From Bacteroidota bacterium (GTDB lineage Bacteria > Bacteroidota > Ignavibacteria > Kryptoniales > JAKASW01), in assembly GCA_021794075.1 (NCBI GenBank), contig JAJYRM010000038.1:1-35516 (forward strand): DNA of 35,516 bases, in the 5' to 3' direction. Below, one piece after another: positions 254 through 11,631 of this stretch (within the stretch, counting starts at the first letter, position 1; every line of letters starts with the position of its first letter). The translations under genes were made by a program, and so were the position numbers. The notes beneath the pieces were generated by a model. That model saw only the letters and a list, made by a program, of their open reading frames with translations. It was not told the DNA's origin and made no database searches.

Positions 254-928
254 TTACTGCGCCGCCTGTTCCGCTGGCGGCGGAGCGCTCTTCTTTCCTC
301 CCGCATTCGCGATCGACTCGAACTCGATCAGTACCAGCGGCTGGCCCGCAAAGATCGAATGCGCCGTGTGCTGTATCTTGCGCATCGTCTTCTGAAGCGA
401 CTTCATCGAATCGTTGCGCGCCTGTGTCGCCGCCTTCTGCAGCTTCTTCGCGTTCTCCTGGCTCTGGTCGATGTTCGCGAGGTCCGCTTCGATGGTCGCG
501 AACGACGCGATCTCCGCGTCCTTTATCCCGTGCGGTGCCAGGTCGGTCTTGTGTTCCATGACGACCGTCTGCTGATACTTCAGCTCGGAGCGCATCTTCT
601 TCACCGTCTTCGGCATTTCACTCCCGATGTGAAACGCTTTGTTAATCACCTCATTGCGTTCGCCGTATTTGCCCTTGACCGCCTGCCTGGTCTTCTGGAT
701 AAGGCCAGTGCCCTCGGCCATCTTGTCGTTCTGCTGAGCGGTAAGCTTGCCGACGGCCTCCACCGCTTTCTGCTGGTCCGTGTGCTTTTGCGAAGCATCG
801 GCCATCCCCGCGGCCAGGGATTCAACCTGTTCGGCCGGAATCCCGTCCTTTCCGTCGGCAGCCTGATACTTCGTTGCGGGCCCCTGAAGTGCCGTCGCCT
901 CTTGCAGCGTTTCATCCATTATTTCCAT
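254..928 (-). CDS. Hypothetical helical protein, probable coiled coil
   Basis: I do not recognise a family. The 224-residue product is rich in Ala, Lys, Gln and Glu, has no Cys or Trp, and has no signal peptide or membrane segment. Long stretches (about residues 35-80 and 100-205) have the composition of amphipathic helices or coiled coil. The C-terminus (GGKKSAPPPAEQAAQ) looks disordered. A cytosolic helical-bundle protein is the most that can be inferred. The start is supported by GGAGG at 938-942, nine bases before the ATG. A terminator-like hairpin follows the stop codon. The gene stands alone, with a 21-bp repeat array directly upstream of its start. Confidence 0.75.
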   Translation of the reverse strand: MEIMDETLQEATALQGPATKYQAADGKDGIPAEQVESLAAGMADASQKHTDQQKAVEAVGKLTAQQNDKMAEGTGLIQKTRQAVKGKYGERNEVINKAFHIGSEMPKTVKKMRSELKYQQTVVMEHKTDLAPHGIKDAEIASFATIEADLANIDQSQENAKKLQKAATQARNDSMKSLQKTMRKIQHTAHSIFAGQPLVLIEFESIANAGGKKSAPPPAEQAAQ

Positions 929-986
929 CAGAACAATCCTCCCTTTCTTTTCTTGTTGATAGAATGATGGATAATGTATGTTGACT

Positions 987-1343
987 GGGAAAACTGCGAA
1001 AAGCGCCGGAAATCGGATCGTTGATGAGAGGAATCACGTATTTTCCGTCGGGAATCACACTGAAAATGGCGGGAAAACGATATTCTCGCGCGGGAATTAC
1101 ACTAAAACCGTCGGGAATCACATTAGAAGCGGTGGTAGACCGGTACTTTTCTCCGGGAAGAACGCATTCGGCGGCAGATGACTCGCATTTTTGCCCGGTA
1201 GAGTCATAAGAATCGGCGGGAATGGAACATTTGAGGGCGGAAGTACCGGATACTTGTCCGGGAATCTCGCTGCTGTAAGGATGAATGGAGCCGAAATGAG
1301 CCGGGCTCCGGAACCTGCAAGCCGGATTTCTCTCGAAAGTCAT
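987..1343. repeat. Degenerate 21-bp tandem repeat array (about 14-17 units)
   Basis: From 987 the sequence falls into consecutive 21-base units with no indels up to at least 1280, and more weakly to about 1343. Unit starts are 987, 1008, 1029, 1050, 1071, 1092, 1113, 1134, 1155, 1176, 1197, 1218, 1239 and 1260. The best-kept part is the first five or six bases, GGGAAT (exact at 1050, 1113, 1218 and 1260, and as GGGAATTAC at 1092), often followed by NACA(T/C)T, with GGC, GTC or CGC at the unit end. The middle is nearly free. Because 21 is a multiple of three, several frames on both strands stay open and show heptapeptide periodicity. The Ile-Pro of the minus-strand frame is always written ATT CCC, which argues for conservation at the DNA level. 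It sits directly upstream of the 254-928 gene. Confidence 0.7.
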
Positions 1344-1622
1344 GGATGCACTTCTACCCGGGGCGCGCCGCCGTGGGTGTGCCGTGTCTCTTTCATATCC
1401 AGTTGTGGAGCCGCGGGTCGGCAAATCCGGATACGAGTCCTCCGCAATGTCGGACCGGTTACTGGAATGCATACGCCAATTACTACCGTGTGACTGTTTT
1501 ACTATCTGCCCTGACTACCTGACGTAGTGAACATAAACCAACGGAAATTGAAAGTCAAGAAATTGTGTAACGTCTCGGTTTGGGCCGATGATATCGGGTT
1601 TAGTTTGAACCAAAAATAGTTT
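1344..1622. other. Gene-free stretch
   Basis: Short overlapping frames occur here on both strands, but none has a credible start, ribosome binding site or recognisable product. The 21-bp periodicity of the preceding array has faded by about 1343. I see no hairpin or promoter that can be defended. Confidence 0.5.
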
Positions 1623-1907: not shown

Positions 1908-4346
<2,439 letters not shown>

Positions 4347-5215: not shown

Positions 5216-5416
5216 GGCAGACAAGGGGCGTTGCATTCTGGTCTCGACGGGCTGAAAGACTGGATGCAGTCGCGGATGAAATCGACAAAAGATCAGAATC
5301 TGAAAGGTCAGCACATGTATGAGCTTTCGCTCAGGCGGTTCCAGGAAAATCCTGTTAAATTCAAGGTGCTGCCGCCGATTGTTTTGCCGCCGGGAGATCC
5401 GATTGGAGAGAACTGA
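5216..5416 (+). pseudogene. Decayed C-terminal fragment of a second metalloprotease copy
   Basis: Translation of this stretch aligns with the last 60 or so residues of the protease at 1908-4346: LKDWMQSRMKSTKDQ corresponds to LKNWIQGRVSTVKDQ, and VLPPGDPIGEN to VLPPGDPIGER. A QGA just before it may match QGAPGQ of the parent, with a small deletion between. There is no signal peptide, no HExxH and no ribosome binding site; the first possible start is a TTG at 5231. This is the tail of a former tandem duplicate. Divergence is substantial, so the duplication is old. Confidence 0.75.
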
Positions 5417-10909: not shown

Positions 10910-11631
10910 CCGGCATAACTGAGATAGCGCCCGACGTATTCAGGATCTCGACATTCATTCGGGAAAACAACATACAGATGAACCAGTTTCTCGTAAGAGA
11001 TGACGAGCCGCTTCTATGGCACACCGGGCAGAGATATCTTTTCGAAGAAGTGAGGGAGGCGACAGCTAGTCTCATCGATATCGGGACTCTGAAGTGGATC
11101 GGCTTCAGCCATTTCGAGCCGGACGAATGCGGATCGCTCAACGAATGGTTCCAAACGGCTCCGTTGGCGGAAGCGTTTTGCAGTGTTGTGGGTGCGAGAG
11201 TGAACATGACTGACTTCGCCTCGCGGAAGGCAAGTGGATTGCAGCATGGCGAGACCATATCGACGGGGAGATACAGTTTCCGATTTCTGTCCACTCCTCA
11301 CCTTCCTCACGGATGGGACGCGGGGCTCCTCTTCGAGGAGACGAACAAGACGCTCTTCTGCTCCGATGTGCTTCACCAGAACGGCAATCTTGCCGCGCTG
11401 ACATCCTCCGACGTGATCGGTGGCGCACGAGAAAATCTGAAGTTGACGCAGTCGGGTCCGATGAAGAACTATCTCCCATACACATCGAACACCGAGAGTC
11501 AGATTGATATGCTGGCGGGACTGAAACCGAAAACGCTCGCGATCATGCACGGATCGAGTTATAACGGCGACGGCGCGAGGGTTCTTAAGGAGTTTGCCGA
11601 AGTCATGAAAGAAGAGCTAACCGTGAGATAG
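10906..11631 (+). CDS. Stand-alone oxygen-binding diiron (ODP) metallo-beta-lactamase-fold protein
   Basis: The 241-residue protein resembles the diiron metallo-beta-lactamase domain of flavodiiron proteins, but without a flavodoxin or rubredoxin domain. Metal-ligand motifs are visible in order: HFEPDE (His69, Glu71, Asp73), TPHLPHGWDAG (His131, His134), CSDVLHQ (Asp153) and IMHGSS (His214). The classical motif is HxExDH; here the last position is Glu74 instead of His, with Cys75 next to it. By family knowledge, ODP proteins bind or reduce O2 or NO, or act as oxygen-sensing modules. Without a flavin domain it would need an outside electron donor or act as a sensor. It overlaps the lipoprotein gene by 4 bases. 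Confidence 0.85.
   Translation: MTGITEIAPDVFRISTFIRENNIQMNQFLVRDDEPLLWHTGQRYLFEEVREATASLIDIGTLKWIGFSHFEPDECGSLNEWFQTAPLAEAFCSVVGARVNMTDFASRKASGLQHGETISTGRYSFRFLSTPHLPHGWDAGLLFEETNKTLFCSDVLHQNGNLAALTSSDVIGGARENLKLTQSGPMKNYLPYTSNTESQIDMLAGLKPKTLAIMHGSSYNGDGARVLKEFAEVMKEELTVR

Follow-up and report, generated by a model that had tools for sequence, protein, structure and literature searches.

A 21-bp tandem array paired with the gene for a PQLLE-like helical protein

The locus in the window

The window (that is, the whole stretch of 35,516 nucleotides analysed here) carries a minus-strand gene for a helical protein and, upstream of its start codon, a degenerate tandem array. The features discussed below are as follows.

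254–928, minus strand: gene for a 224-aa helical protein with two homologous halves and a Pro-rich tail, a distant NF052641 relative
929–1,001, minus strand: leader from the array core to the start codon, with the ribosome site GGGAGGA (complement of 937–943)
987–1,301, no strand assigned: array of 21-bp units of two helical turns each, delimited by lag statistics and the unit list
1,002–1,274: array core of 13 units, with recognisable edges at 987–1,301
912–1,472, minus strand: spurious 186-aa open reading frame (ORF) across the array

The 21-base periodicity at 987–1,343 is real: self-match reached 0.387, 0.454 and 0.463 at lags of 21, 42 and 63, whereas dinucleotide shuffles gave 0.254 (z = 5.5, 8.1 and 8.1), a clear excess in the comparison that the initial annotation had put forward as its own check, and the mean over the three lags (0.434) exceeded the highest value that 300 shuffles gave over lags of 12–30 (0.309). 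That annotation had described at least 14 contiguous units reaching position 1,343; the repeat itself held up, but the core comprises 13 units, and the last 42 bases (1,302–1,343) are non-repeat. The units are free of indels relative to one another, as had been claimed, and the proposed common box (GGGAAT on the plus strand, ATTCCC in gene orientation) survives as a local version only: among the 14 units spanning 987–1,280, 5 carry it exactly and 10 are within one mismatch, while the remainder of the unit is degenerate. Tandem Repeats Finder missed the window array because it is too degenerate, and searches of its own genome with this array recovered only the array itself, degenerate arrays not being findable in that way. 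The window array contains no inverted units, its 10.5-bp signal taken alone is not significant (p = 0.12), and the TAnnTTTG/TAnnTTG promoter motif is not enriched between array and gene.

The helical-protein gene is real, with its ribosome site at 937–943 and its start 73 bp from the array core. Against the NCBIfam model NF052641 (‘PQLLE family protein’), which is matched by all 16 aligned members of the superfamily, the window protein scored 42.4 bits (E = 6e-11), below the curated cut-off of 80 bits, and by its sequence it is a distant relative rather than a formal member. The homology extends over about 170 residues; true members also have 21-bp arrays, as does one encoded elsewhere in the window’s genome (L108, 161.7 bits). 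No function is attached to the family name, and our literature search found no mention of an array. Relatives of the window protein occur in its genus and class, the named records being metagenome-assembled genomes labelled Bacteroidetes, Ignavibacteria or Candidatus Kryptoniota. The window protein consists of two halves homologous to each other (hhalign probability 98.8, E = 7.5e-17), and its structure was predicted with a pLDDT of 88.9; structure searches returned generic helical bundles only, none with an E-value below 0.001, which is not evidence of a new fold. Pfam has no family for the window protein and no DNA-binding domain is recognisable in it; PHROGs likewise has none, with only isolated single-member matches for other members. 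Among plasmids, phages and viral contigs there was no relative of the helical domain, weak plasmid matches being largely to a fibronectin-type (FN3) part.

Many members (L018, L019, L034, L040, L051 and others) are extended at the C terminus, in several cases by an FN3-like part, and these show no obvious N-terminal signal peptide. At L014 (G006:C35), the helical-protein reading frame continues out of the array and residues 1–63 are missing from the match, so that this gene may be a truncation or rearrangement. Elsewhere in the window, the tail (PPIVLPPGDPIGEN) of a 61-aa ORF at 5,231–5,416 (plus strand) equals that of the DUF5117/DUF4953 metalloprotease at 1,908–4,346 (PAPMVLPPGDPIGER), and the ORF is perhaps a fragment of a second metalloprotease copy.

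Pairing of array and gene across the superfamily

The neighbourhood of every relative, sought in essentially one phylum, was scanned for periods of 15 to 30, and a locus was taken to carry the array if its top period was 21 with a score of at least 0.43. On this basis, 97 of 101 superfamily loci have a 21-bp array, a statistic that, like the others computed family-wide, rests on loci related to one another; L036, L107 and L121 failed, and L190 fell narrowly under the score. Random segments passed in 35 of 948 cases (3.7%) and in none of 131 from the window’s own genome, and 22 of the 35 were stretches of G205 or G005, where gene-less arrays occur. In most cases 50–500 bp separate the gene from an array upstream of it, and the median array in the first 56 loci has 12 units. 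The window locus matches the description of the superfamily as a whole (that is, a helical two-half protein together with a 21-bp array), and the suggestion that its array is tied to the adjacent gene is well founded in its relatives: the array is one half of a conserved two-part module with a PQLLE-like gene, found phylum-wide.

Two loci carry other repeats as well. One paralogue has a distinct tandem repeat of 42 bp upstream of its 21-bp array (L187:391–765, gene orientation), and at L075:14,011–15,331 tandem palindromic repeats of 43–44 bp surround a 211-aa ORF that, judged by eye, looks like a REP-associated (RAYT-like) transposase.

Array and gene can travel together. G172 has two copies that share 94% identity across precisely the array and the gene, which were copied as one 1.14-kb unit; their flanks are otherwise unrelated except for dispersed repeats of about 100 bp (L103:10,278–10,378 and 11,503–11,601), which also occur elsewhere in that genome. 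Array similarity is 0.28 where the proteins are under 27% identical and climbs to 0.85 where they are 75–85% identical, and paralogues of the same genome seem more different than orthologues of equal identity, although these pairs are not independent. In G205, where one query gene found ten matches, the linked arrays resemble one another only at background level (0.32). These observations bear on the possibility that the array is bound by an unlinked DNA-binding protein, whether a global regulator or a nucleoid protein, and serves only to control or insulate the gene next to it. Such a reader would fit the lack of a recognisable DNA-binding domain in the linked protein and the position of most arrays in the upstream region of the gene; however, different arrays on paralogues of one genome, similarity that follows the linked protein, joint copying of array and gene, and the existence of downstream and solo arrays all speak against it, and we regard it as unlikely.

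G205 also has solo arrays, which lack a gene. Those at C81 and C30 repeat the unit of the gene-linked C13 array, and that at C115 repeats the unit of the gene-linked C107 array. The C81 array departs from its linked twin by 8%, without gaps, whereas the leader differs by 23% and the upstream flank by 31%; the identity of the array has thus been kept without a gene, by selection or homogenisation. The arrays of the orthologues L171 and L165 have diverged by 16% without gaps, as against 34% at four-fold sites. Arrays of L198 and L202 differ by indels of whole units, and arrays of close orthologues in genus g109 change in concert. Within that genus, L196 and L197 differ by 3% in the gene and by 31% in the array, with the box changed in nearly every unit.

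Conservation within the unit

Comparison of the relatives showed that the unit sequence varies between loci while the 21-bp length is nearly always kept (42 bp in some). The consensus GGGAAT offered by the initial annotation therefore does not generalise: it is this locus’s form, on the opposite strand, of a TTTCCGAA-like box, which together with an A-rich patch makes up a weak common 21-mer standing about 12 s.d. over genomic 21-mers. Palindromicity of the unit is at chance level. About a fifth of loci have clear inverted units, and several arrays finish just before the gene with one to three of them; they score on average 19.5 bits against their own array and 6.9 bits against other arrays, and they track the forward units when the box changes (L204 versus L206).

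When column conservation was Fourier-transformed across 96 arrays, a single strong peak stood out, at two cycles per unit (that is, 10.5 bp; z = 15.6); it is retained when the large genus g109 is left out (z = 11.2) and in the window’s genus alone (z = 5.8). There is nothing at period 7, a deficit at period 3 (z = −3.2) and no signal at period 5.25 (z = −0.4); purine content follows the same 10.5-bp period (z = 10.1). Within each unit, the conserved positions thus form two patches that mostly share a single face of the double helix, strongly supporting the earlier idea of two-turn phasing, with the proviso that a grid of 21 positions cannot separate 10.5 from 11, so that the spectrum alone is also compatible with an RNA duplex.

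A protein-coding heptapeptide repeat is rejected on the Fourier result and on permutation of the 21 columns, in which codons left no signal (mean p of 0.46 across 56 arrays, 3.6% of them under 0.05; p = 0.67 for the window array). The inference that constraint acts on DNA rather than protein is accordingly supported, although the argument first given for it, the constant use of ATT CCC codons, is uninformative by itself. The 186-aa ORF has no Pfam match and no codon signal, and is not a gene. We consider it very unlikely that the array is a neutral satellite arising from slippage during replication, or the decayed remnant of a repeat that coded for heptapeptides. Homogenised arrays and the whole-unit indels mentioned above do show unit turnover, and the ORF does stay open across the window array; however, slippage gives no reason for a unit of exactly 21 bp beside one family at 97 of 101 loci, solo and linked arrays keep their identity while their flanks diverge, and a coding relic is at odds with the missing codon signal, the lack of a peak at period 3 or 7 and the ORF without a Pfam match.

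A structured RNA element was rejected, as Rfam gave no match and neither strand showed an excess of RNA structure (mean z = −0.16 and −0.23). The array might still be transcribed and act as RNA, with the PQLLE-like protein coating it in 21-nt steps and the variable bases serving as guides, in a manner recalling VIPR or TIGR. The position of arrays next to one lone protein gene, the fixed unit length, the preservation of unit-specific bases between L171 and L165, and an array that changes fast while the protein is nearly constant (L196/L197) would all suit such an arrangement. The absence of a fold signal on both strands, the almost identical units and hence lack of spacer content in several arrays (L018, L040, L055 and L083), and the failure to find a Nop or RAMP domain in the scanned members count against it, and one-face conservation at 10.5 bp with units in both orientations suits duplex DNA better; an RNA role therefore seems improbable to us.

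Neither TIGR-Tas nor VIPR fits. TIGR-Tas, which likewise pairs a tandem array with one protein gene, has two alternating repeats (edge and loop), 9-nt spacers, 36-nt guide RNAs and a Nop-domain protein (PMC12045711), whereas here the unit is 21 bp (42 bp in some) without a contiguous spacer, and none of 16 members matched the Nop domain. VIPR RNAs, in which fixed and variable positions are likewise interleaved in a tandem array, alternate GGY and NN motifs with a 5-nt step and work with a RAMP-type protein encoded by phages (PMC13142463); here, the period is 21 with 10.5 inside, there is no peak near 5, and no RAMP domain was found. A CRISPR array is also rejected: the 21-bp units abut one another, no repeat of constant sequence alternates with unique spacers, and the scanned proteins gave no Cas match.

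A proposed address array on duplex DNA

Taken together, the linkage, the phasing and the copy-specific units indicate that something recognises duplex DNA from one side in steps of two turns, with a specificity that varies from copy to copy. On the basis of these sequence patterns, we suggest, with a probability of roughly 0.6, that the array is a duplex-DNA address of which one helical face is read, most likely by the linked protein. As its halves are homologous, this tandem-duplicate protein would be a natural reader with one half per turn. We infer that it reads the array itself, and that the stoichiometry and autoregulation would be as follows.

In the proposed mechanism, the array would act as a double-stranded DNA element, half of the two-part module, with units of exactly two helical turns. 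The two-half protein would bind its own array cooperatively from one helix face, with one molecule (or dimer) per 21 bp and one half per turn, and the product would be a one-sided nucleoprotein row of about 6–30 units. The unit sequence may serve as a locus-specific address that prevents cross-talk among co-resident modules and solo arrays, and at loci with inverted units just before the gene, the protein probably autoregulates its own gene. As a first guess, the cellular role may be that of a scaffold or centromere-like element. Several observations count against the proposal: the PQLLE-like protein is near neutral in charge, a few arrays lie downstream of the gene or up to about 1 kb away, and the contrast between L196 and L197 implies that binding specificity would need to rest on very few residues. 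A further, doubtful possibility is programmable recognition, in which PQLLE-like proteins would form rows on a 21-base framework of DNA or RNA whose free positions spell out an exchangeable address; a single fold could then read many addresses, and the target would be set by the array instead of the protein.

Iterons and plasmid partition sites (of the ParR/parC and TubR/tubC types) are direct repeats of about two turns beside the gene for their presumed binding protein. The present arrays resemble them in having direct repeats, an adjoining gene for a candidate binder and possible autoregulation; in contrast, the unit sequence here differs at almost every locus and a DNA-binding fold is not recognisable in the protein. 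A non-systematic look at the neighbourhoods showed no Rep, ParA, ParM or TubZ partner beside the gene, and no relative was found among the plasmids, phages and viral contigs searched.

The helical-protein gene and its own 21-base array thus apparently form an undescribed two-part module: our literature search, in which subscription papers and preprints were thinly covered, found no description of the pair. We rate the pair as new as a system, although a protein together with its binding sites would, if the address reading were confirmed, be a known kind of arrangement. For the family, which occurs phylum-wide, the pairing adds an almost inseparable partner, one whose unit length is fixed at two turns while its sequence drifts. 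If the protein reads the array, the family would offer an unknown way of DNA recognition, with many apparently orthogonal pairs of protein and address, and a clear case of concerted co-evolution between a protein and dozens of its sites; if the array instead works as RNA, it would represent a new array-guided system.
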